A DNA stretch of 64,000 nt from the NCBI GenBank assembly GCA_021927905.1, contig BLLK01000019.1, positions 62,001 through 126,000 of the forward strand, given 5' to 3'. The translations under genes and the position numbers were made by a program. The DNA is from Chaetoceros tenuissimus. Its lineage: Eukaryota; Bacillariophyta; Thalassiosirophyceae; Chaetocerotales; Chaetocerotaceae. Each line of letters opens with the position of its first letter. Position 1 is the stretch's first letter. Under the pieces are notes generated by a model, which saw nothing but the letters and a program-made list of their open reading frames with translations, had not been told where the DNA came from and searched no databases. Positions 4,904 through 24,619 of the stretch are shown piece by piece.

Positions 4904-5209
4904 TTGATCTTCTTACATGACCATCAACAAACGCATCAGGTTCTAATTGGCCCTTACGAGGAAAGTTTTGATACCAAAAAGATTCATTGTGAAGACGAAT
5001 TCTCTTTACATAGAATCTGCTCCTCATACTATCCACTGATAGAAGAGATTCATGAAATAGTAAAACATCATGGTCTAGGAGTTTTCGCAAAAGAAGATAC
5101 CATTGGAATCACGCCATCGAAATTTCTAACTATAAATCCTTTCGTCGAAATCAAAGAAGAAGAGATAATCAAGTGCTATATTCTAGACATGATGGGTGAA
5201 TTAATTTAA
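4904..5209 (+). pseudogene. Remnant of LRR/ankyrin-like family: C-terminal module only
   Basis: Residues encoded from about 4990 to 5209 read DEFSLHRICSSYYPL, then GLGVFAKEDTIGITPSKFL and a C-terminus DMMGELI. These match the conserved C-terminal module of the array members (FALHRACSSFQPL, GLKAFREENSAGITPSRYL, MMGEVE). The MRVATVDG start and all leucine-rich repeats are absent, and the open frame begins at a TTG rather than an ATG. I read it as a 5'-truncated family copy or an independently duplicated C-terminal module. It is more diverged than the other fragments, so it is probably older. It lies tail-to-tail with the intact family member on the minus strand 150 bp away. Confidence 0.75.
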
Positions 5210-5359
5210 AAGTATATCAAAAGAATAAAAAGTATCCCTAATTATTCCAATGAAGTATACTATTCTCTATGTTCCAATCATTTCCATGACTATCTCCATC
5301 TTTGCTACTACATATCATCTCAACATTTCAATATCTGAACAGTGTATCTTGTTTCCTGT

Positions 5360-6160
5360 CTATACACATTCACCCATCTGTTTCGTGATGTAGTCGTGAA
5401 TAATATCCATCTCTGTAATGTCTGTAAATGGATTCTCTGCCAAGTAACGAGACGGAGTGATCCCAATGCCATTCTTTTTCTTAAAAGCTTTCAAACCTTT
5501 CTCTTCAATTATAGTCCAAATAACTTCCTTCAGTGGCTGAAAAGAGGAACATGCCCTATGTAAAGAATAGTCATTGCCATCGTTTATATTTTTGAGCCAG
5601 TCGTTTACTCTACGAGAAGTGCGGCTAGGACGATCCCGGGCATCACTAAACAAGTGAGATTCATTCAGTAGCTTTGTTTCTTCGTCAATCATGCGTATAC
5701 CGAATTGAGCTTGTTGTGGAACATGTAGGATAGACAAATTCTTGTTCTTAGAAAATGCATGTGCTCCAATCTCTCTGCATGTTGGCGGAATGAAGACGCT
5801 AGAAAGATCGCACGACAAGAATGCATATGAGCCGATCACTTCTAGGCTGATGGATAGTTTGATATATTCTAGATTCTTGCACCAATAAAAAACACATCTT
5901 CCAATTCTAATCACGGTGTTGGCAAAGATTACTCTCTTGATGTTGTAACAATGGTCAAAAGTAAAGTCTGGAATCTCGGTGACGCCTTCTTCAATGATTA
6001 TCTGCTGCCATGACATTCTTTCTCTAATGTAGTCCTTGCATTCAGCTGATTGATATCTTTCAGGTCTTCTCTCCCATTCCTCATGCAGTTTGCAATTCCA
6101 GAGTTTCTTCGATCCGTCATAAAAAAGAGTCACGAGACCGTCTACTGTAGCAACCCTCAT
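5360..6160 (-). CDS. BspA-type LRR protein with ankyrin-like C-terminal module
   Basis: 266 residues; the only member of the array on the minus strand. It begins MRVATVDGLVTLFYDGSKKLW, the invariant family N-terminus. Residues about 48-150 hold roughly five BspA-like (LRR_5) repeats of 22-23 residues with the pattern IKRVIFANTVIRIGRCVFYWC. The C-terminal module (about residues 188-266) contains YSLHRACSSFQPL, GLKAFKKKNGIGITPSRYL and MGECV. The linker between LRRs and C-terminal module is charged and variable. There is no signal peptide or membrane segment, so a cytosolic or nuclear location is inferred. LRR_5 and ankyrin-like folds are protein-binding; no specific partner can be named. A CRE-like site lies 133 bp upstream (6293-6301). 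The frame is intact. Confidence 0.9.
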   Translation of the reverse strand: MRVATVDGLVTLFYDGSKKLWNCKLHEEWERRPERYQSAECKDYIRERMSWQQIIIEEGVTEIPDFTFDHCYNIKRVIFANTVIRIGRCVFYWCKNLEYIKLSISLEVIGSYAFLSCDLSSVFIPPTCREIGAHAFSKNKNLSILHVPQQAQFGIRMIDEETKLLNESHLFSDARDRPSRTSRRVNDWLKNINDGNDYSLHRACSSFQPLKEVIWTIIEEKGLKAFKKKNGIGITPSRYLAENPFTDITEMDIIHDYITKQMGECV

Positions 6161-6268
6161 AATAGTGTATTTAGTTAGTTTCCCTAGTGCTCACTTTTAT
6201 CTTTTCGCTTCGAACAATACAATAACATTTCAACATGAAAATAAAAGACGTTTTTGGACTGAGAGGAG

Positions 6269-6301
6269 GTTGTAAGGAAAGATAATTCACCACAATGACG
6301 C
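6269..6301 (-). promoter_or_regulatory. CRE-like promoter module of the 5360-6160 gene
   Basis: On the minus strand GCGTCATTG (6301-6293) is followed downstream by CTTACAAC (6276-6269), about 110-140 bp before the ATG. Order and spacing match the ACGTCATTG plus CTTACAAAACTAT module before the plus-strand paralogues. The remainder of 6161-6566 shows no gene. Confidence 0.55.
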
Positions 6302-6566
6302 CAACAAACGTCATTTTAACTTCCTTATGAACAGTCATATTTTGAAAGCAAGGAATCATTCGTTGCAAGCTACCTTTACCATAGATGACGCGACTAAAGT
6401 TTATGCTTAGGCAATATTAGCATAGAAAACAACTTCAACAATCAATGGCTTAGGCCATATTAGAGTAATTACATTATAAGCAAGTTCAAAATATTATTAT
6501 AAAATTGTTTTAAAAATTAGTCTACATGTATGATCCAAAATGTAAAAATTGGTATCATAGCTCTCT

Positions 6567-8381
6567 TTACTTGCTCTTGCTCATTCGTAATACCGTAGGA
6601 TCTACATGTAACATTGCATAAATTGTACTCAAATCATATTGCTTCGAACTAGCTCTCAGTACTGGCACTAGTCCACTTGTTGGATCAGTTATACTCGCCG
6701 CACTGCGATAGGCCATGAGGATATTATTCAAACCAAGATCCCAATCTAATTCTTGCTCCAAAGCGCAATGCAATGGTAATCTTCCGTGAATATCAGGCAT
6801 AGATGCTGCTTCTGCATTTTTTCCAATGAGATATGAAATGGTAGACTGCAATTCATTGCATCTTCCCAAGTAACGAGAAGGAATGTCCGAGTTTAGAAAC
6901 ATGATTAATGGAGTCTCATGTTTCGAACCTCTTTGTTTGAGCAACTCTTGAGGGTAGAGTTTACACAAGCCACAAATGATGGGCAGTGGTGCTTTGCAGT
7001 ATATGGCCGCATGAATGGGATACCAACGACTCGCATCAGTACCAAGATTTTGCAAATGTTTCATGGATCCATGATAAGCACAGCACATGAGTAGGATCAT
7101 TTTCTCCCATATCGATCCTAGTTGCTGAACAAAGTTTAGTAAATCTTCCATGTCATGATCATGTATGGAATATTCGAATAAAACTTGTCCAATGGAAGAA
7201 AGTCCATCGATACTATTGGTAGCATTTTGTACAATATCGAGCATTGATTCGGTACTAACTCGTTCCTGAGTAATCACATCAAATATCCCCTGCAGAGGCG
7301 ATGCTATTTCTCCAGTTTGAGGTTTGTCTTGACGAGTGCTATCATCCATGTTGTAGTCTGCATTCTTTTGTTCATTGCTTTTACTAGAATTGCTAGTCAT
7401 GGATGTACCAAGTATAGCCCTTCTCAATAAATTACTACATCCATCCTTGGTATGCATGGCATGTTGCTTCTTCATCAATCCCTTGGTAGGATCAATCATG
7501 ACAAAGAATTCATTCGACCCAAAGACACGTTCCATACTCCTGAGTATATACTCCACTACCCTAGTGGAACAATGTATAGATTCTACCGCAGCATATAATG
7601 GCGTCTTACGTTTCATATCCAAATAGAGTAAACATTTCGGATTCTGATGAATCAAGTAGGAAATCATTTGTAAATGCTGCATAGCATACTCTCCATCACT
7701 GTTCAAAACCCCCGACTGTATTTCTTCACATGTCAAATTCTCAAACGGAAAGGACCAATTTTGATTCGATTCCTGTTGTACTATATTCGCTAATCGGCAT
7801 GCATCATGAATCGGTAGAGCCTGTTGATAATTCTTGATTAAAAGCGTGTAAGGACTAGCCGTCGCTAACAATTTCAATACTTTGACATTCATCCCTTCTT
7901 CTTTCCTAGACTGATCTTGTGACTCTAGTGTCAAACCTAAATGAGTGACGAACTGATGCAAAGGCGTTTCATTCCAATTATTCACAGTATAAACCACTCT
8001 TGAATCACTTTCCACTAGACACTTGATAACTTGATACTTGACTTGATCCAAATCCGAATTTCCGAATCTTGTAAATTGACATAGACGATGTAAGGCATTT
8101 TCACCGCAACTATCGACCCAATAGACTTTTTCTTTGGACAGTTTGAATATTTTATCTCGAAGATTTTGAGATAAAATTAGTTTGGAGGAAAGAGATACCG
8201 ATGATGATTGTAGGTTGATAAAGTTATTCACTGTTTTGTAGAGTGCTGGGATCTCTTCGGAGGAATGAAAATATGGAAAGGCATAGGGATCATTGACAAA
8301 GGCTGTCGTGTCTGTTGTAGTTGTAGCCATGACAGTGTCTTCTTGATTAGAATTCATGTTATTTGATGCGATGCTGGCCAT
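6567..8381 (-). CDS. Ankyrin-repeat protein
   Basis: 604 residues, one exon, ATG start. Degenerate ankyrin-type units are visible across the chain: NALHRLCQF, ETPLHQFVTHL, ALPIHDACRLAN, KTPLYAAVESI, WYPIHAAIYCKAPLP, ETPLIMFLN and GRLPLHCALEQ, spaced 35-90 residues apart. The first ~45 residues and a stretch near 330-370 are low complexity. There is no signal peptide or transmembrane segment. Ankyrin repeats mediate protein-protein contacts; the target is unknown. It sits inside the LRR/ankyrin-like array but lacks the MRVATVDG start and the LRRs, so it belongs to a different family. Its C-terminal units resemble the LH-ACSS motif of the array only at the general ankyrin level. Confidence 0.85.
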   Translation of the reverse strand: MASIASNNMNSNQEDTVMATTTTDTTAFVNDPYAFPYFHSSEEIPALYKTVNNFINLQSSSVSLSSKLILSQNLRDKIFKLSKEKVYWVDSCGENALHRLCQFTRFGNSDLDQVKYQVIKCLVESDSRVVYTVNNWNETPLHQFVTHLGLTLESQDQSRKEEGMNVKVLKLLATASPYTLLIKNYQQALPIHDACRLANIVQQESNQNWSFPFENLTCEEIQSGVLNSDGEYAMQHLQMISYLIHQNPKCLLYLDMKRKTPLYAAVESIHCSTRVVEYILRSMERVFGSNEFFVMIDPTKGLMKKQHAMHTKDGCSNLLRRAILGTSMTSNSSKSNEQKNADYNMDDSTRQDKPQTGEIASPLQGIFDVITQERVSTESMLDIVQNATNSIDGLSSIGQVLFEYSIHDHDMEDLLNFVQQLGSIWEKMILLMCCAYHGSMKHLQNLGTDASRWYPIHAAIYCKAPLPIICGLCKLYPQELLKQRGSKHETPLIMFLNSDIPSRYLGRCNELQSTISYLIGKNAEAASMPDIHGRLPLHCALEQELDWDLGLNNILMAYRSAASITDPTSGLVPVLRASSKQYDLSTIYAMLHVDPTVLRMSKSK

Positions 8382-8926: not shown

Positions 8927-9810
8927 ATGAGAGTTGCTACTGTTGATGGTCTCGTTACCTTTTCTACGACGGATCAAAGGAACTCTTCAGTCAAAGGCTA
9001 GAAAATGAGCGTGTACTTGATGCATTTGCAAATATTGGCCGTTTTCTCAATCGCGAAAGAACAGTAAATGACTTGGAAGCAATGGATATATCTGATGAAT
9101 GTAAGAGGTATTTCAGAGAGAGACAATATTGGCAGCAGATAATTGTTGTTGATGGTGTTACGGTGATTCCAGAATATACTTTTTGTGGTTGCAAGAATAT
9201 CAAAAGAGTCATTTTTGCAAATACCGTCATCAGGATTAAAAGTTGGGCTTTCTCTCTATGTACCAGTCTTGTTTTTATAAAGTGGTCAATCAGACTAGAA
9301 TATATTGGTAAAGATGCATTTCAATATTGCAATCTTTCAAGCATCTTTATGCCACCGACGTGCAGAGAAATCTGCCAGGGTGCATTTCAATGCAACAGGA
9401 ATTTATCTGTCTTCCATGTTCCACAGGAGACTGATGTTGGTAGAGATATCATCCTTGGTACAGCGATTGCAGGTGCGATTGTAGAAGCATCACCTATGGA
9501 AAGAAATAATCAATTGAATGTTATTGATTTCTTACAAGGAAGACATGACGCAAATGATAACATGAATCAATTGCTCAAAAATATAAATAACGGTGAACAA
9601 TATGCACTGCATAGAGCATGCGCAGGTTTCTGGCCTCTAAAAGAAGTAATACATGCAATCATCCTATGAAAAGGACTCAAGGCGTTTCGAGAAGAAAACA
9701 GTGCAGGGATATCTCCGTCAAGATACCTGAAAGAAAATCCATACACTGATTTCGATGAGAAAGAAATCATTCATGATTATCTAATGAAAAGGATGGGAGA
9801 GGTTGAATAG
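8927..9810 (+). pseudogene. LRR/ankyrin-like family member broken by a frameshift and a stop
   Basis: Starts ATG AGA GTT GCT ACT GTT GAT GGT CTC GTT like its paralogues. One base is then missing near 8958-8961 (GTTACCTTTTC against GTTACTCTTTTC elsewhere), which shifts the frame. The normal frame resumes and is open from about 8965 through the five LRRs and most of the C-terminal module. A TGA at 9667-9669 then replaces a CGA arginine codon present in paralogues (IIL-stop-KGLKAF). Beyond it the module is intact to a normal family stop at 9808-9810. With two lesions and a good promoter, it is a recent pseudogene that may still be transcribed. A sequencing error could explain one lesion but hardly both. 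Confidence 0.85.
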
Positions 9811-10083
9811 AGTAACAATTTAAACATATTCTCAATTGTTTATCAACAACATTTTCAAGTTTGGTCTACATCGAAGGGGCAAGGAGACGTTGTTCATATG
9901 AAGCAAAGACAGAAGCTTTTAATAATTTGTTATTCATCACTGTGCTTTTATGAAAAGAAGCAGTTGGAATAGAAAAAAGTAAACCTTTGTTTCATTTATT
10001 ATAGTTGATTTTTGCTCCAGCAGTAGCATCAGATGATCTGCAAACTCGCATGTCTTCTATTTTAGAAAATTAAAACAGAAGAC

Positions 10084-10092
10084 ACGTCATTG
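10084..10092 (+). promoter_or_regulatory. Orphan ACGTCATTG (CRE-like) site
   Basis: Same context as the site at 18300, but 1.1 kb from the next family ATG instead of about 180 bp. The CTTACAAAAC box is missing. Confidence 0.45.
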
Positions 10093-10888
10093 TGTTGGGA
10101 GATATTGTGTCACGAAGGAACAACTTGGTGTTGTGTCTATTGATTGTAAAGCAGAGCTTCATTTCTGATACGATGTTCAGGACTCTCCTCTGATGATGAA
10201 ATAGCTACAATGCTGCCATTATTATTCCTCGTTCCGCTTTTTCACCATCATCTTTGTCAACCTCGTCCTAACACTACAGCAGCAGCTAAGTACTCAACGT
10301 TTCCTGTCTTTCATATCCTCCATGTCTCATCTACAAGAGAATTCAATATTCATCCCTTCCACAAGCACGAAATCACCAATATTATTTGTCAATCAGCCCG
10401 TAAGTATAAGTATAACAACAAACAACCCGCCCAATTAAGCTACCCGTCAACTACTTGATTCATCCTATGCTGGTAAAAGATACACTTCAAACCCAAAATG
10501 TTCTCCAAAATCTGTATATATTGTTCCGATCAACAAAAGAAAGCAAGTATATGACAATAATCGCGACAGAAGCAGATTCGTCAAGAGTAGTATCCTCGCT
10601 CGTCTAGAACTTGTTGGTCTTTCATCAGCCAAATTGCAACTGAGCTTTATTCCATCTTTTCTTCCACATCCCACATGAAACGACTCTTCAACCATCATAC
10701 GCCATCCTCTCAAAAATATGAATACACATGGTCCAAGTATATAAATACCAACTATGTAGAAGGATCTAGAAGGATCATTATACCGTAGTGTGATGATCAA
10801 TGATGCAGTTATGTATCGCGTTCTATGCTTGTGATGGGCCCTCAAACAATTTCATCCAAAAAATAAAAAACTTTTTGGATCCTCAAAT

Positions 10889-11205: not shown

Positions 11206-12036
11206 ATGAGAATGAGGGTTGCTACTGTTGATGGTCTCGTCACTCTTTTCTACGACGGATCGGAGGAACTCTGGAATCCAATACTAGAGTTTACCTTTCT
11301 AATTACTGGAGGTTCTATCAATTTAGAGCACAATTCCGAGGAAAGAGCAGCTGACTTGGAAGCAATGAACGTACCCGATAGTTGCAAGAGGTATTACAGA
11401 GAGAGACAATCATGGCAGCAGATAATTATTGTCGAAGGCGTCACTGTGATTCCAGAGAGAACTTTCTGTTATTGCTTCAACATCCAAAGAGTCATCTTTG
11501 CAAATACCGTCATTAGAATTGAAAAATGTGCTTTCGCTATATGTCAAGATCTTGTTTTCATAAAGTGGTCAATGAGCCTACAATATATAGGACCTTTGGC
11601 ATTTGAAGCTTGCAATCTTTCAAGCGTATTTATACCACCAACATGTCAAGAAATTTGCAGAGAAGCATTTAATTGCTGCAACAATCTATCTATCTTGCAT
11701 GTTCCAAGGCAGACAGCACTCGGTGAAAACGTCTTTAGATATACAGCACTTGTAGAAGCATCGCCTTTTGATGCAGTGAATGACGACACGAATCAATGGC
11801 TCAAGAACATGAATAACGACGAGGCATTTTCTCTCCATAGAGCATGCTCGTCGTTCCAGCCATTGAAAGAGGTGATACATACAATTCTTCAAGAAAAGGG
11901 ATTGAAAGCTTTTCGTGAGGAAAATAGCGCAGGAATCACTCCATCGCGATACTTACAAGAAAATCCATACACAAATCTGACCGAGAAAGAAATCATTCAT
12001 GATTATCTTATGAAAATGATTGGTGAAGTTGAATAG
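11206..12036 (+). CDS. BspA-type LRR protein with ankyrin-like C-terminal module
   Basis: 276 residues from the first ATG. The conserved family start (MRVATVDGLVTLFYDGS) is the second ATG at 11212, two codons in, and either could be used. LRRs about 70-170 include VIFANTVIRIEKCAFAIC and LSSVFIPPTCQEICREAF. The C-terminal module runs from NQWLKNMNNDEAF to MMIGEVE-type residues (about 190-276). A TATAAA at 11176-11181 is 30 bp before the ATG. Unlike its neighbours it has no CRE/CTTACAAAAC module at -150 to -215; twin CCAAT-type boxes lie further upstream. The frame is intact and the function unknown. Confidence 0.9.
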   Translation: MRMRVATVDGLVTLFYDGSEELWNPILEFTFLITGGSINLEHNSEERAADLEAMNVPDSCKRYYRERQSWQQIIIVEGVTVIPERTFCYCFNIQRVIFANTVIRIEKCAFAICQDLVFIKWSMSLQYIGPLAFEACNLSSVFIPPTCQEICREAFNCCNNLSILHVPRQTALGENVFRYTALVEASPFDAVNDDTNQWLKNMNNDEAFSLHRACSSFQPLKEVIHTILQEKGLKAFREENSAGITPSRYLQENPYTNLTEKEIIHDYLMKMIGEVE

Positions 12037-12530: not shown

Positions 12531-13469
12531 ATGAGAGTTGCTAATGTCGATGGTCTCGTCACTCTCTTTTATGATGGATCGAAGGAACTCCTCAATCGAG
12601 ATCTAGAGTATGAGCACCTAATTGCACAGCGGCATGGACGCATGAATCTCAATGCAATGAGACGGCGTGATGGCCATGGTACCGAAAGAACAAATGACTT
12701 CGAAACAATGGACGTATCGGATGAGTGTAAAAGATATTTCAGAGAAAGATATTCGTGGCAGCAGATAATTGTTGTCGAAGGCGTTACTGCAATTCCAGAA
12801 TTCACTTTCAAAGGTTGCATAAACATCAAGAGAGTCATCTTTGCCAATACCGTGATTAGAATCGAACAGTGGGCGTTCTCTTTTTGCAAGAATCTAGTCT
12901 ACATCAAGCTATCAATCACTTTAGAATACATTGGCGAATATTCATTCACCAGTTGCAATCTTTCAAGTGTCTTTATTCCTCCACGATGCAGAAAGATTTG
13001 CAATCATGCTTTTGAAGGAAACACAAATTTGACAATCTTCCATGTTCCACGGGACACCGAACTTGGTAGCATCGTCATCTCAGATACAGCACTTGCAGAA
13101 GCATCACCCGTGGGCAGATTTAATCATTTGTCCGGTCCCGATCGAATATTAGCACTGCAAGCAATGATCAGAGCAGGTAATAGAACAGAACAACAAAGAC
13201 GTGAAGAAAATAACGAAATGAATGAATGGCTCAAGACCATGAATAATGACGAAGCATTTGCTCTTCATAGAGTATGTGCATCATTTCGGCCTTTGAAAGA
13301 AGTTATACATGCAATCATTCAAGAGAAAGGGCTAAAGGCATTTCGTGAAGAGAACAGCGCAGGAATCACTCCATCACGATACCTACAAGAAAATCCATAC
13401 ACTGAGTTGAACGAGAAAGAAATCATCCGTGAGCATCTAATGAAAATGATGGGAGAAGTTGAATACTAG
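12531..13469 (+). CDS. BspA-type LRR protein with ankyrin-like C-terminal module (longest member)
   Basis: 312 residues with the MRVANVDGLVTLFYDGS start (ATG 30 bp after TATAAA). A longer N-terminal linker (residues about 25-65, Arg/His/Met-rich) and a long charged linker (about 190-230, with RAGNRTEQQRREENNEMNEW) account for the extra length. LRRs span about 75-180 and end with FIPPRCRKICNHAF and LTIFHVP. The C-terminal module, about 225-312, contains FALHRVCASFRPL and AGITPSRYLQENPY. The linker is the most variable part of the family, while LRR and C-terminal module are conserved. The frame is intact. Confidence 0.9.
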   Translation: MRVANVDGLVTLFYDGSKELLNRDLEYEHLIAQRHGRMNLNAMRRRDGHGTERTNDFETMDVSDECKRYFRERYSWQQIIVVEGVTAIPEFTFKGCINIKRVIFANTVIRIEQWAFSFCKNLVYIKLSITLEYIGEYSFTSCNLSSVFIPPRCRKICNHAFEGNTNLTIFHVPRDTELGSIVISDTALAEASPVGRFNHLSGPDRILALQAMIRAGNRTEQQRREENNEMNEWLKTMNNDEAFALHRVCASFRPLKEVIHAIIQEKGLKAFREENSAGITPSRYLQENPYTELNEKEIIREHLMKMMGEVEY

Positions 13470-13855: not shown

Positions 13856-14692
13856 ATGAGGGTTGCTACAATAGACGGTCTCGTGACTCTTTTCTACGAC
13901 GGGTCAAAGGAACTCTTCAATGAAACATTTGATGAGGAGTTTTGGTGGCATTATTGTGGCGACGGGATGCATAACGAACATGATTGGGAGGACTGGAATC
14001 TATCTAATGAATGTAAGAACTATTGGAGAGAGCGACTCTCTTGGCAGCAGGTAATTATCGTCGATGGCGTTACGGAGATTCCAGAGAAGACTTTTACAAG
14101 ATGCTTCAAGATCAAACGAGTCATCTTTGCAAACACCGTCGTAAGGATTGGAAGATATGCTTTCCTTTCGTGCAAATGTCTCATCTTTGTGAAATGGCCA
14201 ATAAATCTCGAATATATTGGGCTCAAAGCTCTTTCTCAATGCTATCTTTCGAGCATCTTCATTCCTCCGACATGTAGAGAAATATGTGACTATGCATTTG
14301 AAGGCAACAACAATTTGTCTGTTTTGCATGTTCCACGGGAAACTGAACTTGGTGAAAAAATCATCTTTGGTACAGCACTTGCAGAAGCATCACCTATTGA
14401 AACACAGCATCATGTTGGTTGGTACGATGAAGGGAATGACGACATGAATCAATGGCTCAAAAATATGAATAACGACGACCAATTTGCTCTTCATAGAGCA
14501 TGCTCGTCGTTTCAACCTATGAAAGAAGTTATATATCCAATTATATTACAGAAAGGTCTCAAGGCATTCAAAGAAAAGAATAGTGCTGGAATCATTCCGT
14601 CAAAATACTTGCAAGAAAACTCCTACACTGATTTGACCGAGAAAGAAATCATTCATGATTATCTCATGAAGATGATGGGAGAAGTGGAATAG
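13856..14692 (+). CDS. BspA-type LRR protein with ankyrin-like C-terminal module
   Basis: 278 residues starting MRVATIDGLVTLFYDGS. The acidic/aromatic linker (FDEEFWWHYCGDGMHNEHDW) differs from all neighbours. LRRs about 52-155, with LSSIFIPPTCREICDYAF. The C-terminal module, about 195-278, contains FALHRACSSFQPM and AGIIPSKYLQENSY. The frame is intact. The downstream spacer to 15120 is duplicated behind the 18484 gene, so this gene and the next form the older half of a two-gene duplication. Confidence 0.9.
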   Translation: MRVATIDGLVTLFYDGSKELFNETFDEEFWWHYCGDGMHNEHDWEDWNLSNECKNYWRERLSWQQVIIVDGVTEIPEKTFTRCFKIKRVIFANTVVRIGRYAFLSCKCLIFVKWPINLEYIGLKALSQCYLSSIFIPPTCREICDYAFEGNNNLSVLHVPRETELGEKIIFGTALAEASPIETQHHVGWYDEGNDDMNQWLKNMNNDDQFALHRACSSFQPMKEVIYPIILQKGLKAFKEKNSAGIIPSKYLQENSYTDLTEKEIIHDYLMKMMGEVE

Positions 14693-14983
14693 AGGAATTA
14701 TTATGCCGCTAAAAAAAGATTTTCATAAATCATTGTATTTTTATATTATATTGAAGCAAGATACAGCTTTTATAAAGCAAAGATGGAAGCACTATTGATA
14801 TCATCCCTCTTAGACGATGGCTTCTTTTACGTACGTCTTTTTAAGAAAGCAAGGAAAATAAATTTAAAACGTATAAAGGTTACTATTTTTTTTCAACAGT
14901 TTGAGTCGGGTTCTTATTAACTTTAGTAGAACATTGAAGGTTCAGGATTTCTCGTATGACTTTTTACATTGAAATTACAAGTA

Positions 14984-15023
14984 GACGTCATTGTCCGAAA
15001 TTAGCTCTCTTACAAAACTATTA
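14984..15023 (+). promoter_or_regulatory. GACGTCATTG plus CTTACAAAACTATTA module
   Basis: GACGTCATTG (14984-14993) and CTTACAAAACTATTA (15009-15023), 126-165 bp before the ATG at 15149. Nearly identical to 19634-19673. The spacer 14693-15148 otherwise contains no gene. Confidence 0.65.
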
Positions 15024-15148
15024 CAAAGATCTTCAGCGAACAGCGAAAACAATAACAATGCAGCAGCACCTCCTTACCATTTACTATCATAAAAAAAAAT
15101 CTGACTTATAATCCTAAGGACCTGAATATATTATTTTATTGAAAGGAA

Positions 15149-15973
15149 ATGAGGGTTGCTACAGTTGATGGTCCGAGAGAACTCTACAATATGGAACTAG
15201 AACATGAATGGCTTGGTAACAGGGGACATGTCTTGGATGCTAAGAATAATAAAAGAATGGAAGTTGAGTCATTGAATGTATCAGATAGATGTAAAAAATA
15301 CATCAAAGAAAGACTCTCGTGGCAGCAGGTAATCGTTGTCGATGGCGTGGAAGAAATTCCTAGAGAAACCTTCTCTTGGTGTCTTGAACTCAAAAGAGTC
15401 ATCTTCGCAGATACCGTCATCAGAATTGGAAAATTTGCTTTCTGTAATTGTGAAAACCTTGTTGTCTATATCAAATGGTCAATCATTTTGGAAGTTATTG
15501 GCCAGTCTGCATTCCGACATTGCAACCTATCGAGTGTCTTTATTCCTCCGACATGCGAGCAGATTGATGGGAATGTATTTGCGTACAACAGGAAGTTATC
15601 TATCTTGCATGTTCCACAAGATGCTCAACTTGGTAGATGCGTGTTTGCTGCCACAACAATTGCAAAATCGTCACCTTTGCATGTAGATAGAAATGGTTGG
15701 TACAGTTATTCAGAAAGTAATGACATGAATGAATGGCTAAGGAGTATGAATGACGATGACCAATTCAATCTCCATAGAGCATGCTCCTCGTTTCAGCCAA
15801 TGAAGCAAGTTATTTATGCAATCATCCTACGAAAAGGACTCAAAGCATTTTGTGAAGTAAATTGTGCTGGAATCACTCCGTCAAAATATTTGGGGGAGAA
15901 CCCATACACAGATCTGACCGAGAAAGAAATCATCCATGATTACCTAATGAAGATGATTGGCGAAGTTGAATAG
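15149..15973 (+). CDS. LRR/ankyrin-like family member with an 8-residue N-terminal deletion
   Basis: 274 residues. Closest to the 21360 gene. MRVATVDG runs straight into PRELYNMELEHEW, so the otherwise invariant LVTLFYDGS segment is missing. Comparison with 21360 shows a 24-base in-frame deletion flanked by short GGT-C repeats (GATGGTC / GACGGTTC). LRRs (about 55-155) and C-terminal module (about 190-274) are complete, ending MIGEVE. One extra valine (NLVVYIKW) relative to paralogues is a 3-base insertion. The gene is open, but loss of the family's most conserved segment may disable it. Confidence 0.85.
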   Translation: MRVATVDGPRELYNMELEHEWLGNRGHVLDAKNNKRMEVESLNVSDRCKKYIKERLSWQQVIVVDGVEEIPRETFSWCLELKRVIFADTVIRIGKFAFCNCENLVVYIKWSIILEVIGQSAFRHCNLSSVFIPPTCEQIDGNVFAYNRKLSILHVPQDAQLGRCVFAATTIAKSSPLHVDRNGWYSYSESNDMNEWLRSMNDDDQFNLHRACSSFQPMKQVIYAIILRKGLKAFCEVNCAGITPSKYLGENPYTDLTEKEIIHDYLMKMIGEVE

Positions 15974-16429: not shown

Positions 16430-16470
16430 ACGTCATTGGTATAGAAACGGCCTTACTTACAAAACTATCA
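16430..16470 (+). promoter_or_regulatory. ACGTCATTG plus CTTACAAAACTATCA module
   Basis: ACGTCATTG (16430-16438) and CTTACAAAACTATCA (16456-16470), 116-156 bp before the ATG at 16586. Confidence 0.6.
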
Positions 16471-16585: not shown

Positions 16586-17413
16586 ATGAGGGTTGCTACA
16601 GTAGACGGTCTCGTGACTCTCTTCTACGACGGATCGAAGGAACTCTACAATGATGAACTACAGCAAGAGTGGTGGGATGCCCGGAATCATTCAAGAAATC
16701 GACGTTTTCTTGAAAGTGCTAAGAATTGGGAATCAATGGATATATCTGATGAATGTAAAAGATACTGAAAAAAACGACAATCGTGGCAGCAAATAATTGT
16801 TATGGAAGGCGTCACGGAGATTCCAGACAAAACTTTCATGAGATGCTACAATGTCAAGAGAGTCATCTGTGCAAATACCGTCGTAAGGATTGAATGGTGG
16901 GCCTTTTTTGGTTGCAAAAGCCTTGCTTATATTCAGCTTTCCATCACATTAGAATTCATTGGAGATTCCGCCTTTGTTGGATGTGATCTTTCAAGTGTCT
17001 TTATTCCACCAAGATGCAGAGACATTAACTTCGGGGCTTTTGCATTCAACACAAATTTATCTATTTTTTATTTACCACATGATACTGAACTCCCTCAGAG
17101 TATCATTCATAATACAGCCCTTGCAAAAGCCTCGCCTTTCCAAGTAGAAACGATTGGTTGGCACATGAATGAATGGATCAAGAATATAAATAACGACGAA
17201 GCTTTTGCTCTTCATAGAGCATGCTCCTCGTTTCAGCCATTGAAAGAGGTTATTCATGCAATTGTTCTAGAAAAGGGGTTGAAAGCGTTGAGAGAAGAAA
17301 ACAGTACAGGTATCACGCCATCAAAATACTTGAAAGAAAACCCTTATACTGAATTAAGCGAGAAAGAAATCATTCATGATTATCTTATGAAAATGATGGG
17401 AGAAGTTGAATAG
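16586..17413 (+). pseudogene. LRR/ankyrin-like family member with a single in-frame TGA
   Basis: The full-length frame (276 codons) starts MRVATVDGLVTLFYDGS and ends MMGEVE. It is interrupted only by TGA at 16766-16768, where paralogues read RYFRERQSW (here RY-stop-KKRQSW). The frame is the same before and after, so one substitution event breaks it. LRRs follow (VICANTVVRIEWWAFFGC, LSSVFIPPRCRDINFGAF) and then an intact C-terminal module. The protein is either truncated to 60 residues or restarts at the ATG at 16802, which would give a 203-residue protein without the N-terminal motif. The promoter is preserved. Confidence 0.8.
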
Positions 17414-17618: not shown

Positions 17619-17922
17619 TTGTTTGAGATTATAGCTCGTGAACAACGAAGAATTGCAGCTAGTAATAAAATAAATCATTGGCTCAAGACAATAAATAATG
17701 ATGAGAAATTTGCTCTACATAGAGCATGCTCTTCGTTCCAGCCCTTGAAACAAGTTATCAATGCAGTCATCTTACAGAATGGTCTGAGAGCCTTTAGAGA
17801 AGAGAATAGTGCTGGAATCACTCCATCGCGATACATACAAGAAAACCCCATACACTGAATTGACTGAGAAAGAAATTATCCATGATTATCTCATGAAGAT
17901 GATGGGAGACGAAGTTGAATAG
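17619..17922 (+). pseudogene. Extra copy of the family C-terminal module, frameshifted
   Basis: From about 17660 it reads INHWLKTINNDEKFALHRACSSFQPL, then GLRAFREENSAGITPSRY. One extra C in a CCCC run (about 17846-17849) breaks the frame in ENP-YTELTEKEI. After it the other frame continues to a family-like stop at 17920-17922. LRRs and MRVATVDG start are absent. It lies 250 bp behind the end of the 16586 copy, as a tandem duplicate of the last third of the gene. Confidence 0.75.
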
Positions 17923-17927
17923 AAGAA

Positions 17928-18144
17928 CAATCAGGAGCAATTTGCTCTCCACAGAGCATGCTCCTCGTTCCATCCATTGAAAGAAGTTATACATACAATT
18001 ATTTCACAGCGAGGACTGAAGGCATTTCGAAAAGAGAATAGCGCAGGAATCACTCCATCAAGATACTTGAAGGAGTATGTGATTTAACGGAGAAAGAAAT
18101 AATTCGTGATTACCTAATGAAAATGATTGGAGAGGTTGAATAGA
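17928..18144 (+). pseudogene. Second extra copy of the family C-terminal module, internally deleted
   Basis: Begins immediately after the previous fragment with QFALHRACSSFHPL and GLKAFRKENSAGITPSRYLKE, then loses the ENPYTDL segment through a small deletion near 18075 that shifts the frame. It ends with the family-type GEVE stop at 18142-18144. Together with 17160-17413 and 17660-17922, this makes three consecutive C-terminal modules in 1 kb. Confidence 0.7.
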
Positions 18145-18299: not shown

Positions 18300-18459
18300 A
18301 CGTCATTGTGTTGGGAGAAATTGTCTCACTTTCTCACACTTACAAAATTATCACTATATGCACGCCGCCACGACCGCCGCCACAAGAACACCGCCATTAC
18401 TTTGCTTACCGACGATACTACTACAGACTTCACTCCTAGACTGCTGCTGAACATATAAA
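18300..18459 (+). promoter_or_regulatory. Family promoter of the 18484 gene
   Basis: ACGTCATTG (18300-18308), CTTACAAAATTATCA (18339-18353) and TATAAA (18454-18459), 25-30 bp before the ATG at 18484. Near-identical to the 12531 and 10084 flanks. Confidence 0.6.
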
Positions 18460-18483
18460 ATTCACCGCACTCACCACAAGACT

Positions 18484-19302
18484 ATGAGGGTTGCTACTAT
18501 TGATGGTCTCGTGACTCTCTTTTATGACGGATCGAAGGAACTATGGAATGAAAATCTAAATTGGGAGCGGTCGATTGCACTTTTGACCGGTGTAAGAGCA
18601 AATGACTTGGAATCTTCAAATGTTTCGGATGAATGCAAGAGATATTTCAGAGAGAGACATTCTTGGGAGCAGATAATTATTGTCGATGGCGTTACTGAGA
18701 TTCCATACATGACTTTCGGTTATTGCAGGAATATTAAAAGAGTCATTTTTGCAAACACTGTGATCAGGATTGAACGAAATGCTTTCTATCATTGTGAAAA
18801 TCTAGTCTTTATCAAGTGGTCAGTTAGCCTAGTATACATTGGAAAAAGTGCCTTTGAAGAATGTAATCTTTCGAGCGTCTTTCTACCACCAACATGCAGA
18901 GAGATCTGTGACAGCGTATTTTATTCGAACAGGAACTTGTCTATCTTGCATTTCCCACAGGAAACTGAACTTGGTGAAAAAATCATCTACTGCACAGCGC
19001 TTGCAGAAGCATCACCTAATGCAAATTTTCCTTTTTATTACAGGAATAACGACATGAATCAATGGCTCAAAAATATGAATATTGACAACCAATTTGCTCT
19101 TCATAGAGCATGCTCCTCATTCCAACCGTTGAAAGAAGTTATAAATGCAATTCTTATACAGAAAGGATTAAAAGCATTCAAAGAAAAGAATAGCGCGGGT
19201 ATCACTCCATCAAGATACTTACAAGAAAACCCTTACACTGATTTAAGTGAGAAAGAAATCATTCATGATTATCTCATGAAAATGATTGATGAAGTAGAAT
19301 AG
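18484..19302 (+). CDS. BspA-type LRR protein with ankyrin-like C-terminal module
   Basis: 272 residues with an MRVATIDGLVTLFYDGS start 25 bp after TATAAA. LRRs about 55-155, with VIFANTVIRIERNAFYHC and LSSVFLPPTCREICDSVF. A short linker (NANFPFYYRNN) precedes the C-terminal module (about 188-272, FALHRACSSFQPL, AGITPSRYLQENPY, MIDEVE). The promoter matches the 12531 gene, whereas the 3' spacer matches that behind 13856. The locus therefore looks like a mosaic of two ancestral units. The frame is intact. Confidence 0.9.
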   Translation: MRVATIDGLVTLFYDGSKELWNENLNWERSIALLTGVRANDLESSNVSDECKRYFRERHSWEQIIIVDGVTEIPYMTFGYCRNIKRVIFANTVIRIERNAFYHCENLVFIKWSVSLVYIGKSAFEECNLSSVFLPPTCREICDSVFYSNRNLSILHFPQETELGEKIIYCTALAEASPNANFPFYYRNNDMNQWLKNMNIDNQFALHRACSSFQPLKEVINAILIQKGLKAFKEKNSAGITPSRYLQENPYTDLSEKEIIHDYLMKMIDEVE

Positions 19303-19414: not shown

Positions 19415-19520
19415 TCTTTTACGTACGTCTTTTAAGAAAGCAAGGAAAATAAATTTAAAATAAAGGTTACTATTTCTTTTACGTACGTCTTTTAAGAAAG
19501 CAAGGAAAATAAATTTAAAA
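19415..19520 (+). repeat. 60-bp tandem duplication containing ACGTACGTC
   Basis: TTCTTTTACGTACGTCTTTT followed by the same ~27 further bases occurs at 19415-19460 and again at 19475-19520, period 60. The equivalent spacer behind 13856 (14821 onward) has only one copy, so the duplication happened after the segmental copy. Confidence 0.8.
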
Positions 19521-19633
19521 CGTATAAAGGTTACTATTTTTTTCAATAGTTTGAGTCGGGTTCTTATTAACTTCAGAAGAACATTGAAGGTTCAGGATTT
19601 CTCGTATGACTTTTTACATGGAAATTACAAAAA

Positions 19634-19673
19634 GACGTCATTGTCCGAAATTAGCTCACTTACAAAACTATTA
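19634..19673 (+). promoter_or_regulatory. Family promoter module displaced from its gene
   Basis: GACGTCATTG (19634-19643) and CTTACAAAACTATTA (19659-19673) match 14984-15023. The downstream gene's ATG is at 21360. Subtracting the 1.56-kb insertion and duplicated site would put the module about 168 bp upstream, the normal family distance. Confidence 0.65.
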
Positions 19674-19781
19674 CAAAGATCTTCAGCGAACAGCGAAAAC
19701 AATAACAATGCAGCAGCACCTCCTTACCATTTTTACTATCATACAAAAAATTCTGACATTATAATCCTAAGGACCTGAATA

Positions 19782-21321: not shown

Positions 21322-21323
21322 AT
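20982..21323 (-). pseudogene. Retroelement C-terminal fragment interrupted by the piggyBac-like element
   Basis: The minus-strand frame reads to within the inserted element and stops in its terminal repeat (TAG in CCTAG). Removing the element and one TTAA would change the last residues after PLTRL and bring a TGA about ten codons on, which looks like the original end. It begins at the truncated 5' end of the retroelement and has no start of its own. The ATG near 21317 is fortuitous. It resembles reverse-transcriptase protein tails but has no catalytic motif. Confidence 0.6.
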
Positions 21324-21359
21324 CCTAAGGACCTGAATATATTATTTTATTGGAAGTTA

Positions 21360-22205
21360 ATGAGGGTTGCTACAGTAGATGGTCTCGTGACTCTCTTTTA
21401 CGACGGTTCGAGAGAACTCTACAATATGGAACTAGAACATGAATGGTTTGGTAACAGGGGACATGTCTTGGATGCTGATACTAACAAAAGAATGGAAGTT
21501 GAGTCATTGAATGTATCAGATAGATGTAAAAAGTATATCAAAGAAAGACTCTCGTGGCAGCAAATAATCGTTGTCGATGGCGTGGAAGAAATTCCTAGAG
21601 AAACCTTCTCTTGGTGTCTTGAAGTCAAAAGAGTCATCTTCGCTAACACCGTAATCAGGATTGGAAAATTTGCTTTCTGTAATTGTGAAAACCTTGTCTA
21701 TATCAAGTGGTCAATCTTTTTGGGAGTTATTGGCCAGTCTGCATTCCGACATTGTAACCTTTCGAGTGTCTTTATACCTCCGACATGCGAGGAGATTGAT
21801 CGGAATGCATTTGCATACAACAGGAATTTATCTATCTTACATGTTCCCCAAGATGCTCAACTTGGTAGATGCGTGTTTGCCACCACAACCATTGCAAAAT
21901 CGTCATCTTTGCATGTAGATAGAAATGGTTGGTACAGTTATGGAGAAAGTAATGAAATGAATCAATGGCTCCTCAACATGAATAATGACAACAAATTCTC
22001 CCTTCATAGAGCATGCTCCTCTTTCCAGCCATTGAAGGAAGTTCTATATCCAATTATTTCACAGAAAGGACTGAAAGCATTTCGAGAAAAGAATACTGCT
22101 GGAATCACTCCATCAAAATACTTGAAGGAAAACCCATACACTGATTTGACCGAGAAAGAAATTATCCACGATTATCTCATGAAAATGATGGGTGAGGTAG
22201 AATAG
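21360..22205 (+). CDS. BspA-type LRR protein with ankyrin-like C-terminal module, promoter displaced
   Basis: 281 residues with a complete MRVATVDGLVTLFYDGS start. Sister of the 15149 gene, about 90% identical by eye. LRRs about 62-165, with LEVKRVIFANTVIRIGKFAF and LSSVFIPPTCEEIDRNAF. The linker is SLHVDRNGWYSYGESNEMNQ and the C-terminal module about 197-281. A TATA-like GAATATATTATT remains 10-25 bp before the ATG, but the CRE module is now 1.7 kb away beyond the retroelement. The frame is intact; expression may be lost or rewired. Confidence 0.9.
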   Translation: MRVATVDGLVTLFYDGSRELYNMELEHEWFGNRGHVLDADTNKRMEVESLNVSDRCKKYIKERLSWQQIIVVDGVEEIPRETFSWCLEVKRVIFANTVIRIGKFAFCNCENLVYIKWSIFLGVIGQSAFRHCNLSSVFIPPTCEEIDRNAFAYNRNLSILHVPQDAQLGRCVFATTTIAKSSSLHVDRNGWYSYGESNEMNQWLLNMNNDNKFSLHRACSSFQPLKEVLYPIISQKGLKAFREKNTAGITPSKYLKENPYTDLTEKEIIHDYLMKMMGEVE

Positions 22206-22472
22206 AGATATAAACACACTTTTATAATAAGACTTTTATAAGATCATTATATTTTTTCTATATATTGTTTCTATAAAGTAAAGATGGAAGCTCCTTTAAC
22301 ATTGTAGCTCCTAGACGACAGGTTCTTTTGCTCACGTCTTTTCTATAAAGGAAAATAAATATAAGCTGTGAATAGATTACTATCTGCTTCAACAGTTTAA
22401 GTTGACTTTGTATTTATTTGAGCAGTAACATCAAAGTTTCTTGTGCATTTCTTTTCATTGGAAATTACAGAA
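22206..22472. other. Spacer behind the 21360 gene
   Basis: No gene seen. It is related to the spacers at 14700 and 19310 (AAGATGGAAGC, then TAGACGA and CACGTCTTTT-type segments) but more diverged. Confidence 0.4.
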
Positions 22473-22512
22473 GACGTCATTGTTCGAAAATATCTTACTT
22501 ACAAAACTATTA
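22473..22512 (+). promoter_or_regulatory. GACGTCATTG plus CTTACAAAACTATTA module
   Basis: GACGTCATTG (22473-22482) and CTTACAAAACTATTA (22498-22512), 162-201 bp before the ATG at 22674. Confidence 0.65.
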
Positions 22513-22673
22513 CAAAAATCAGAGGAGTCGAGAGTCGAGTCAAAACAGCCAATATCCATCAAAATGTGTGCATCGTACTATTCTCCCCATACCACACTGA
22601 ATTCTCACAATAGTTTTTGTTCAAGATAAGCCTAGGAACCATAAATATATATTTCACATGCATCTAAAAGAAT

Positions 22674-23464
22674 ATGAGGGTAGCTATTGTTGATGGTCTC
22701 GTGACTCTCTTCTACGATGGATCGAAGCTGCTCTTCAATTGGGGACTAAATTTGGAGTGGCAGTTTTCCTTTGGTGGAAGAACAAGCGATGAATGCAAGG
22801 AGTACATTCGAGAAAGATGGACATGGCAGCAGGTTATCGTGATGGAAGGCGTGTCTGTTATTCCAGAAGGTACATTCTCCCTTTGCAAGGGCATCAAAAG
22901 AGTCATCTTTGCCAATACCGTCATCAGGATTGAGAAAAATGCTTTCTATCTTTGCAAAAGACTTGTTCATATAAAGTTTCCAATCAGTCTAGAATATATT
23001 GGCCCATATGCATTTGAAGAATGCAACCTATCAAGCGCCTTTATTCCTCCAAGATGCAGAGAGATTTGCGAGAGCGCATTTCAATGCAATGAAAATTTGA
23101 CAATCTTCCATGTGTCATCTATCGTACAGCACTTGCAGAAGCATCCCCTTTTGAGGTAGTATCAGATGAATCAGATGAAGATGAAGATGAAGGGGAAGAG
23201 AGAGCTGATCCTAACATGAATATTTGGCTCAAGAATCTGAATAACGACGATGCATACGCTCTACATAGAGCATGCTCTTCGTACCAACCTTTGAAAGAAG
23301 ATATACATGCAATCATCCAAGACAAAGGAGTAAACGCATTTAGAGAGAAGAATAGTGCTGGAATCACTCCATCGCAATATTTACAAGAAAATCCGTACAC
23401 TGATTTGAAAGAGATGGATTTCGTACGTTATTATCTACTGAAAAAGTTGGGTGAAGTGGAATAG
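22674..23464 (+). pseudogene. LRR/ankyrin-like family member with a deletion-frameshift after the LRRs
   Basis: The N-terminal half (22674-23159 frame) is normal: MRVAIVDGLVTLFYDGS, five LRRs to LTIFHV. About 30 bases encoding the PRDTELGxxI segment are then missing near 23115, and the frame shifts. The other frame resumes at IYRTALAEASPFEVV. It carries an unusually acidic linker (SDESDEDEDEGEE) and a complete C-terminal module (NIWLKNLNNDDAYALHRACSSYQPL) to the stop at 23462-23464. A 19-base GT-AG pair at the junction is too short to be an intron. The product, if made, is a 161-residue LRR-only protein. Confidence 0.8.
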
Positions 23465-23513
23465 AAAGGTAGATTGCAGTTCAGCTTTTATAATTGTTTG
23501 ATGGAGAAAATCT

Positions 23514-23522
23514 ACGTCATTG
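23514..23522 (+). promoter_or_regulatory. ACGTCATTG site of the 23735 gene
   Basis: ACGTCATTG, 213 bp before the ATG. The CTTACAAAAC box is not conserved here. Confidence 0.5.
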
Positions 23523-23734
23523 TTTCAATTTCTATATAGATTAAAACTTTACGTAGTATAAACGATTTTACTGCAGCTTTTGATGTGATATGATAGAATT
23601 GTCGATTTCCATCTTTTAGTCCCATCGTGATGCAAATCGTGAAGCTATATTTCTCAGTCAACTTCTTTCAAAATTCAACATGTATTCTTCGTTGCAGATT
23701 CATTTACTCACAAATTGATTAGCCAGTTTTGAGT

Positions 23735-24619
23735 ATGAGGGTTGCTACAGTTGACGGTCTCGTAACTCTTTATTATGATGGATCAAGGGAACTCTACAAT
23801 CGTGAACTTCATTCAGAGAGATTTCTTGCATATGCTGAACACGGTCGACTCGATGAATATTTAAATAGAGGCCATTCCGGAAGAGTAGATGAAAGGAAAG
23901 ATTGGGATGACTTGGAAGAAATGGGTGTATCTGATCAATGCAAGAGATATTTCAGAGATAGGCTTTCTTGGCAGCAGGTAATTATTGTCGATGGCGTCAC
24001 TGAAATTACTCGTCTTACTTTCAGTGATTGTGAAAACATCAAGAAAGTAATCTTTCCAAATACATTGATTAGAATCGAACGATGTGCTCTCGCTGGTTGC
24101 AAAAAGCTTGCCTTTGTAAAATTGTCAATGAACCTAGAGTATATTGGAGAGTATGCATTCTCTGGATGTGATATTTCTAGCGTCTTCATTCCATCCACGT
24201 GCAGAGAAATTTACGACTTCGCATTTCTTTCAAACAAGAACTTGTCTATCTTCCATGTTCCTCAGGATATTCAACTTGGTGATAACATCATTGGGTATAC
24301 AGCACTTGCAGAAGCATCGCCTTTCGATGCAACAGCAACTGAAAGGTATGGACAGGCAGTGAATGACAACATTAATCAATGGCTCAAAAATATGAATAAT
24401 GGCGAAACATTTTCTCTTCATAGAGCATGCTCGTCATTCCAGCCATTAAAAGAAGTTATTCACACAATCATCCAAGAGAAGGGGTTGAAAGCTTTTCGCG
24501 AAAAGAATAGCGCGGGTATCACTCCATCGAGATACTTGAAAGAAAACCCGTATACTACTTTGAACGAGAAGGAGATCATTCGTGAGTATGTTATGAAAAT
24601 GATGGGAGATGTTGAATAG
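23735..24619 (+). CDS. BspA-type LRR protein with ankyrin-like C-terminal module
   Basis: 294 residues from the ATG at 23735; two further codons upstream begin with TTG and are not used. The start is MRVATVDGLVTLYYDGS. A long charged linker (about 25-70, with GHSGRVDERKDWDDLEEM) precedes LRRs at about 80-180 (VIFPNTLIRIERCALAGC, ISSVFIPSTCREIYDFAF). The C-terminal module is about 208-294 (FSLHRACSSFQPL, AGITPSRYLKENPY, MMGDVE). It is the last member of the array and has an intact frame. Confidence 0.9.
   Translation: MRVATVDGLVTLYYDGSRELYNRELHSERFLAYAEHGRLDEYLNRGHSGRVDERKDWDDLEEMGVSDQCKRYFRDRLSWQQVIIVDGVTEITRLTFSDCENIKKVIFPNTLIRIERCALAGCKKLAFVKLSMNLEYIGEYAFSGCDISSVFIPSTCREIYDFAFLSNKNLSIFHVPQDIQLGDNIIGYTALAEASPFDATATERYGQAVNDNINQWLKNMNNGETFSLHRACSSFQPLKEVIHTIIQEKGLKAFREKNSAGITPSRYLKENPYTTLNEKEIIREYVMKMMGDVE

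Follow-up and report, generated by a model that had tools for sequence, protein, structure and literature searches.

The window analysed here, a 64,000-nt stretch of a Chaetoceros tenuissimus contig, carries at positions 4976-24619 a tandem array of 14 related gene copies, eight open and six broken, which agrees with the count of about 14 in the preliminary description (Table 1). The lesions differ among the six broken copies. Between the copies at 15149-15973 and 21360-22205, identity is 98% at the 5' end and drops to 79% close to the 3' end. Gene conversion among copies is likely. The N-terminus had been called invariant, which it is not; the motif occurs as MRVANVDG, MRVATIDG and MRVAIVDG, is shortened in one open copy, and is absent from the three C-terminal fragments.

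Table 1. Array copies, lattice codons and upstream elements in the window.
Feature	Position	Strand
C-terminal fragment (broken)	4976-5203	+
Open copy, 266 aa, inverted relative to all other copies	5360-6160	-
Broken copy; frame lost inside N-terminal motif, in-frame stop inside C-terminal module	8927-9810	+
Open copy; ORF finder start at 11206	11212-12036	+
Open copy, 312 aa, longest linkers	12531-13469	+
Open copy	13856-14692	+
Open copy; N-terminal motif short by eight residues	15149-15973	+
Broken copy; single in-frame stop ahead of the LRRs	16586-17413	+
C-terminal fragment, frameshifted (broken)	17622-17922	+
C-terminal fragment, disrupted (broken)	17926-18143	+
Open copy P0001, 272 aa; modelled using AlphaFold2	18484-19302	+
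P0001 lattice codons 75, 76, 79, 80; 98, 99, 102, 103; 121, 122, 125, 126; 143, 144, 147, 148; 165, 166, 169, 170	18706-18993	+
Open copy	21360-22205	+
Broken copy; frameshift near start of last LRR	22674-23464	+
Open copy, 294 aa	23735-24619	+
CGTCATTG upstream of inverted copy 5360-6160	6293-6300	-
CGTCATTG 163 nt upstream of copy 15149	14986-14993	+
CGTCATTG 155 nt upstream of broken copy 16586	16431-16438	+
CGTCATTG 183 nt upstream of copy 18484	18301-18308	+
CGTCATTG 199 nt upstream of broken copy 22674	22475-22482	+
CGTCATTG 220 nt upstream of copy 23735	23515-23522	+

BspA-type leucine-rich repeats (LRRs) were confirmed in all eight open copies using Pfam LRR_5 (PF13306), with E values of 2e-21 to 7e-18 and scores of 65-77 bits against a gathering score of 27.7. 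No other Pfam family was found in these copies at E up to 0.1, and signalling domains (ROC, RING) were absent from all eight in the Pfam search. Copy P0001 was modelled using AlphaFold2 with a pLDDT of 96.1, and the best fold and sequence matches of the head were BspA/TpLRR structures, the fold comparison of the full model covering residues 1-199. A viral origin was considered and rejected; no relative was found in viral contigs, and the best viral fold matches were other LRR proteins. A simple hydropathy scan of the copies found neither a hydrophobic N-terminus nor a clear membrane segment; the 19-residue hydropathy peaks at 1.71 in one or more copies, slightly above the mark of 1.6 usually applied to membrane segments. 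The copies look soluble and intracellular.

The C-terminal module had been described as ankyrin-like, a kinship on which the searches gave mixed results. Pfam Ank matched neither three window modules (E up to 10) nor 37 aligned modules (E up to 1), hhalign comparison of the module with single ankyrin proteins, including two ankyrin-containing proteins of the window, gave no match (myosin as control), and an HMM search of the window ORFs with the module reached a 604-aa ankyrin protein at E 8 only. The module profile does align to the start of the ankyrin array in the ROC-bearing paralog L096 (residues 76-132, at 3e-6 with no more than some tens of ORFs searched), where the match overlaps an Ank_2 match at residues 107-177. 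Assignment of the module to a known domain was dropped, nothing lying above the Pfam cut-off. A PDB sequence search with the module gave one short EF-hand-family match (E 0.003), followed by coatomer alpha (E 0.4-1) and tankyrase ankyrins (E 0.6-1.3). Modelled alone, the module had a pLDDT of 59.9 and was left out of the fold searches.

A common promoter had also been proposed. The upstream element CGTCATTG is real, occurring 10 times in the window against 1.6 expected, with eight of these occurrences inside the array. It is not universal, and a single conserved promoter element was rejected, as the exact element is present in only 24 of 76 upstream regions (0.6 in shuffles). A weak motif model likewise picked out a pattern in shuffled sequence, though one of lower information.

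Ortholog group OG0000 of C. tenuissimus comprises 385 paralogs, 376 of them with LRR_5 (Hongo et al. 2021, PMC8613185), and the window copies, which share organism and domain with it, very probably belong to it. The passages of that paper on the group give counts, without architecture, lattice, selection, fusions or function. The abstract of the paper mentions nine other strains. The expansion of the family is already published, and what is new is the lattice under selection, the head fusions and the enrichment of CGTCATTG. For genome-wide comparison, 60 intact copies were retained by length and end filters from 97 family-like ORFs, with identical copy L070 removed; one further analysis used 113 of 120 listed proteins. 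The nearest relative lies on the same contig for 45 of the 60 copies (mean 13.5 and maximum 26 in 2000 shuffles), and 27 of 101 genome matches sit in frames shorter than 240 aa. The family is shaped by local tandem duplication and decay.

Across the 60 copies, 20 highly variable positions stand on a conserved scaffold, four in each of the five LRRs, flanking the conserved F (or its equivalent) of each repeat. The earlier wording of constant ends with a variable middle is too coarse, since conserved residues alternate with hypervariable ones in the middle. In the AlphaFold2 model of P0001 this lattice falls in predicted loops joining the short second strand of one LRR to the first strand of the next. 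Omega was about 1.8 at the lattice and 0.2 at the remaining LRR residues. The uniform purifying selection named beforehand as the contrary outcome was not found; omega = 1 at the lattice was rejected on two trees, and dN/dS was 0.07-0.26 for the conserved ends and scaffold. The site test, an in-house FUBAR-like script (not HyPhy) with kappa fixed at 2, called 12 of the 20 lattice sites diversifying, against 1, 0 and 0 of 20 in neutral simulations; the lattice had first been spotted as entropy in the same 60 sequences. Synonymous divergence was high (pS 0.22-0.54 in 18 of 19 pairs, 0 in one), and the pair bootstrap of lattice pN minus pS ran from 0.0003 to 0.154, barely excluding zero, with 2.5% of resamples at or below it. 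A second subfamily (13 genes, leaving out L026, which is the same gene as in L082; 16 of 20 lattice codons definable; entropy from 118 of 120 proteins) gave dN/dS of 2.24 at the lattice and 0.30 elsewhere in 6 pairs. Adenine-biased targeted mutagenesis was rejected as a source of the variation, since adenine frequencies of 0.25, 0.43 and 0.28 at the first, second and third positions of the lattice codons are not extremely biased. A published gene count thereby becomes a concrete prediction of a binding surface of about 20 residues per protein.

Some paralogs carry the head together with other domains. A ROC domain shares one open frame with an LRR head at 7 of 10 ROC loci, and ROC was present in all five long-frame stretches from paralogs; a KAP NTPase does so at all three KAP loci. 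Six genes encode the head, a coiled coil and a finger of RING or RING-like type in one open frame. RING C3HC4 scores above the Pfam cut-off in two of these (L091 and L100) and below the cut-offs in L069, L086 and L087, of which L087 has lost RING ligands, and no RING-family match was found in L088 at E up to 1. No LRR was found at two of six places with a RING-type tail (L089 and L090). The tie between the stand-alone heads and the fused receptors is, as judged from sequence, one of homology, not of interaction.

In plant, animal and fungal NLRs a variable repeat sensor is fused to a nucleotide-binding switch, and the fused heads of C. tenuissimus can be likened to these; the switches found here are ROC (with COR) and KAP, and NLRs carry NB-ARC or NACHT. 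The BspA-like proteins of Trichomonas are parasite surface proteins, whereas the C. tenuissimus copies are predicted to be intracellular. The Trichomonas proteins are likewise a large eukaryotic expansion of BspA-type LRRs (PMC6701047). Species-specific LRR genes of Tetrahymena, also a protist, form a massive young family with tandem duplication and ectopic recombination, although they are made of arrays of 90-bp exons, unlike the C. tenuissimus heads (PMC6564038); 'BspA' and 'positive selection' are absent from the main text of that paper. The LRR-ROCO candidate immune receptors of brown algae, also stramenopiles, have repeated LRRs, diversifying selection at four positions per repeat and ROC-COR GTPases (PMC11378527). 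The heads studied here likewise have set positions in every LRR under diversifying selection, but they are BspA-type, mostly without ROC and in single open frames, whereas in brown algae LRR exons are shuffled and spliced to generate the variation. The sites under selection are on the concave face of the strands in brown algae (PMC11378527) and in predicted loops before the strand in C. tenuissimus. In that source no species among the diatoms, the oomycetes and one thraustochytrid exceeds four ROCOs, against 10 ROC-bearing loci matched here.

The earlier suggestion of a rapidly evolving recognition or regulatory repertoire is borne out at the sequence level by diversifying selection at the lattice, local duplication and short-frame matches, the expansion itself being prior knowledge. 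The array makes up one local cluster within a family hundreds strong. In the copies tested, the roughly 20 fast residues stand at fixed positions of a conserved scaffold and likely provide an intracellular recognition head with its target-binding face, an account with about even odds. The repeat proteins likely do the recognising in a system of immune-like defence or self-recognition, and the best reading is a repertoire of intracellular recognition proteins comparable to NLR or LRR-ROCO receptors and probably immune in role. Each copy would bind a different target through its lattice, and the conserved ends may couple the head to common partners. Most copies would be stand-alone heads acting as sensors, adaptors or decoys, or else a reservoir of specificity for the fused signalling receptors, in which target binding may lead to GTPase or NTPase signalling or to ubiquitination. 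If, speculatively, the heads bind molecules from viruses or other parasites, the family would be an innate immune repertoire; neither 'leucine' nor 'LRR' occurs in the main text of the virus-infection transcriptome paper. A fuller version is offered tentatively, as somewhat doubtful: an NLR-like immune repertoire with one interchangeable head, in which several hundred stand-alone LRR-ANK heads, their loop-edge lattice diversified by selection and gene conversion, would supply a reservoir to receptors of the LRR-ANK-ROCO, LRR-ANK-KAP-NTPase and LRR-coiled coil-RING types encoded by the same genome. Such a repertoire would be the first receptor system of this kind described in a diatom, could explain strain-specific virus susceptibility, and would show diatom sensor-plus-switch receptors built from other parts. 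Hundreds of selected heads shared with ROCO, KAP and RING proteins would provide a testable candidate for virus-strain specificity and bear on how diatoms recognise viruses, parasites or each other inside the cell.

Other explanations were weighed against this repertoire of recognition heads. The heads might be substrate receptors of ubiquitin ligases that select many endogenous proteins for degradation, with no immune role, which we consider unlikely. Receptors whose substrates are conserved endogenous proteins do not usually show diversifying selection at the binding lattice, and ROC and KAP are not ubiquitin parts; for such a role speak the six genes that join a head to a coiled coil and a finger of RING or RING-like type, the 120 scored genome matches to the L100 RING, some of them adjoining LRR clusters, and the RING-type fingers among eight domains notably commoner in this diatom than in the other organisms compared (PMC8613185). 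Mating-type or clone recognition in place of defence is improbable for copies that appear soluble and intracellular. Their number, in the hundreds, is also larger than most mating systems employ, although the same birth-and-death pattern is common at allorecognition loci. Also in its favour, a set of 11 sex-regulated genes with Ka/Ks > 1 in Pseudo-nitzschia multistriata includes two LRR receptor-like kinases (PMC5485032).

Relaxed constraint, with loop residues of BspA-type LRRs free to vary in a neutrally expanding tandem family, would fit the 27 short-frame matches and the marginal bootstrap support for lattice pN above pS. In LRR_5 repeats generally, these surface positions are the variable ones too. 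The rejection of omega = 1 on both trees, the site counts that neutral simulations did not reproduce and the lattice dN/dS of the second subfamily make this distinctly improbable. It is very improbable that hybrid Nanopore/Illumina assembly and the merging of haplotypes produced many of the copies and lesions artificially. MaSuRCA and HaploMerger2 were used on a genome with 1.56% heterozygosity, and identical copies do occur (one pair on C27 and one on C17/C29); outside these two pairs, however, the closest of the 60 copies differ at at least 22% of synonymous sites, far above allelic divergence, and the six window lesions are all different.

Metagenomic relatives were rejected as strain data, as the nearest relatives of the control gene CTEN210_00268 were mostly at 72-81% and the metagenomic proteins may therefore be from other species. 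Compared with 164 reference entries, some of them redundant, the 58 proteins had a median identity of 66.5% to their closest entry, with five at 80% or more and two at 90% or more. In 55 of these proteins the scaffold had a median identity of 0.77 to the closest reference and the lattice one of 0.15.

The window array had been described as about 14 tandem copies, 8 open and 6 broken, and both counts held: 14 family copies were recovered by tblastn, with a complete open frame in 8 and lesions that differ among all six others (three are C-terminal fragments, and in two of these the frame is lost as well; two are frameshifted, one of which has an additional stop; the last carries a lone in-frame stop). 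Pfam LRR_5 was the sole family matched by each open array copy (E up to 0.1). Direct repeats extend over stretches upstream of copies, and the window contains 10 occurrences of CGTCATTG versus 1.6 expected (maximum of 5 in 100 shuffles). Eight of these 10 occurrences lie within the array, and six of the eight are ~130-220 nt upstream of a copy and oriented along it, the inverted copy included.

Coordinates of the array, its copies, and nearby or related features (window positions unless a contig is named)
Feature	Location	Strand	Observation
Tandem LRR array	4976-24619		Family copies recovered by tblastn
Ankyrin-repeat protein	6567-8381	-	604 aa, within the LRR array (Ank_2 3e-8)
Conserved block	10043-10113		With CGTCATTG at 10085-10092; follows broken copy 8927-9810, no copy directly behind
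Upstream region of copy 15149	14887-15082		Copy itself at 15149-15973
Modelled copy	18484-19302		AlphaFold2 model
Upstream-like block	19537-19732		96% identity to 14887-15082; next copy 1.6 kb off; perhaps relic of a lost gene
Ankyrin-kinase frame	26284-28203	+	One frame, ankyrin-like repeats then kinase-like domain (by eye)
Membrane protein pair	39940-41502; 42048-43607	-	Tandem, similar multi-pass proteins, 7TM-like by eye
L068; L070	C17:241493; C29:499182		Identical protein pair
L084	C17:1196900-1197500		L069 LRR-RING frame extends into a further cysteine-rich motif with weak likeness to IBR (E 0.009, under cut-off)
L085	C17:1263900-1265550		Second-subfamily LRR protein, long basic tail, nuclear-localisation-signal-like by eye
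RING matches	C16:1618-1706k; C16:3218-3356k; C13:182-185k		Included in 120 scored genomic matches to one RING finger

In an alignment of 60 distinct intact copies, 17 N-terminal residues (N-motif) and 80 C-terminal residues (C-module) are strongly conserved, and two linkers (about 18-47 and 179-191) differ among copies in both length and sequence. The LRRs follow the pattern xx-(T/A)F-xx-C, with N replacing C in the fourth and, in the fifth, I/F/V replacing F and T replacing C. Little or no variation is seen at the F and C positions across LRRs, except at the fifth-LRR F position and T; the four x positions per LRR, which together form a lattice of 20, have entropies of 3.1-3.8 bits and 13-19 amino-acid types. 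The LRR part resembles bacterial BspA/TpLRR structures. DSSP on the AlphaFold2 model (mean pLDDT 96.1) placed all lattice residues in coil, after the short second strand of one turn and before the first strand of the following turn. Equivalent loops of a solenoid are stacked side by side, and therefore the 20 lattice residues should form a single stripe, going by LRR geometry. A hydropathy scan of the 60 copies found no hydrophobic N-terminus (near-start 19-residue mean at most 0.96) and no clear membrane segment (top value 1.71, median 1.19).

Selection was examined with a site-rate grid over 277 codons using a call threshold of P(beta>alpha)>0.9, which was passed by 20 codons, with the reverse at 206. 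Twelve of the 20 are lattice positions, one is residue 82 beside the lattice, and six are in linkers, one of these being a column missing from the reference copy; the call at codon 62, which is nearly invariant, is probably spurious. When the phase around F was scanned, beta>alpha was obtained at offsets -3, -2, +1, and +2 only (24 offsets tested). A common lattice omega of 1.8 versus 1 gave 2dlnL of 27.7, or 27.3 with a tree built from the other LRR codons, for which omega was 0.2; high synonymous divergence and gene conversion are caveats to all the selection tests. When neutral evolution was simulated three times on the same tree, calls arose at 1, 0, and 0 of the 20 lattice sites and at 3, 3, and 1 of the 257 non-lattice sites. 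In a tree-free test with 19 independent close pairs, dN/dS was 1.34 for the lattice, 0.26 for other LRR codons, 0.07 for the N-motif, 0.16 for the C-module, and 0.62 and 0.97 for the linkers; the bootstrap interval of lattice pN minus pS was 0.0003 to 0.154, so this test alone is marginal. A second subfamily of LRR genes, starting with MRVQTEEWxRFIPGVRMYKGKKTLFYNGE and examined once the lattice was already defined, gave a lattice dN/dS of 2.24 versus 0.30 (6 pairs, 13 genes), and the same periodic entropy appeared in an alignment of 118 reference and metagenomic proteins of this subfamily.

The nearest relative is on the same contig for 45 of the 60 copies (at most 26 in 2000 shuffles) and within 100 kb for 44 (at most 19). 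Identity between copies 15149 and 21360 is 98% at the 5' end and drops to 79% toward the 3' end; in that region, other copies are roughly as similar to them as they are to each other. This pattern fits conversion or unequal crossing-over. L068 and L070, and likewise L059 and L060, a zero-divergence pair on contig C27, are very recent copies or else assembly duplications.

In the N-motif copy L069, the same frame runs on through an acidic segment and a coiled-coil-like segment to a RING-like finger (Pfam score under cut-off). Its RING tail is present at six places in the genome, four of them with an LRR head (L069, L086, L087, and L088), the last three heads being of the second subfamily and L087 having lost ligands; L089 has ankyrin-like repeats in lieu of the head (Ank 0.003, under cut-off), and no LRR was seen within the stretch read at L090. 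Canonical RINGs were found in L091 (6e-10) and L100 (1e-10), and for L100 we infer an LRR head from the common 567-aa frame. A number of the 120 RING matches lie in ~600-aa frames on contig stretches shared with LRR arrays; the RING-finger group is a second large expanded family and may be a partner of the LRR family.

The 705-aa frame of L092, of which 539 residues were read, joins an LRR head, through a stretch judged ankyrin-like by eye, to a KAP P-loop NTPase whose match carries on in L094. The four KAP matches in the genome were grouped into three loci, and at all three the KAP domain and a head agree in strand and open-frame length, with coordinates in register. A ROC domain scored over cut-off in all five stretches that follow heads in very long frames (L095-L099) and is preceded by ankyrin matches in L095-L097 (over cut-off in L096 alone). 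ROC-bearing loci number 10, versus the maximum of four ROCOs per species that the consulted part of PMC11378527 gives for diatoms and for some other SAR groups; at these loci the part behind the head was read and the head itself is known from matches. The family query placed a same-frame head at at least six (with 150 of 475 candidates scored), and an LRR_5 match adds a seventh. COR-A exceeds its cut-off in six of those seven frames and falls short of it in the other. The preliminary label of the C-terminus as ankyrin-like stands in part: the stand-alone C-module profile matches L096 exactly at the start of the ankyrin array (very small search), but stand-alone copies had no Pfam ankyrin hit.

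The most economical reading of the family is a recognition head, in which constant ends would serve common partners and the selected lattice, on a constant solenoid, would face targets; most genes would encode the head by itself, and a few would fuse it with a GTPase, an NTPase, or a ubiquitin-ligase finger. NLRs have a similar division of labor. The proposed rapidly evolving recognition or regulatory repertoire has partial support and can now be stated far more precisely: the window copies would work like a variable sensor head, with membership among ROCOs, RING proteins, or NLRs not claimed for them. Brown-algal LRR-ROCO candidates, as far as covered in PMC11378527, split labor in the same way, but their selected sites are on the concave face and their LRR exons are shuffled, whereas the C. 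tenuissimus sites are in single frames, in predicted loops before the strand. Both DNA and RNA viruses infect and lyse C. tenuissimus, according to the consulted parts of PMC8613185 and PMC7996518, and therefore viruses are plausible targets, with no copy tied to a virus; the main text of the virus-infection transcriptome paper has no mention of leucine-rich repeats.

Protein names identify the source organism as Chaetoceros tenuissimus. The expansion itself is already known from the gene count in PMC8613185, where one C. tenuissimus ortholog group has 385 paralogs, 376 with LRR_5, and where the abstract and sections 5, 9, 11, and 14 do not address family architecture or function. No earlier description of the anatomy, selection, birth and death, and fusions turned up in searches of an open-access library. 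With the N-terminal query, the 41-Mb assembly yielded 101 matches, of which 74 are in open frames of at least 240 aa, and a second-subfamily member gave at least 147 genomic matches (144 of 540 candidates scored).
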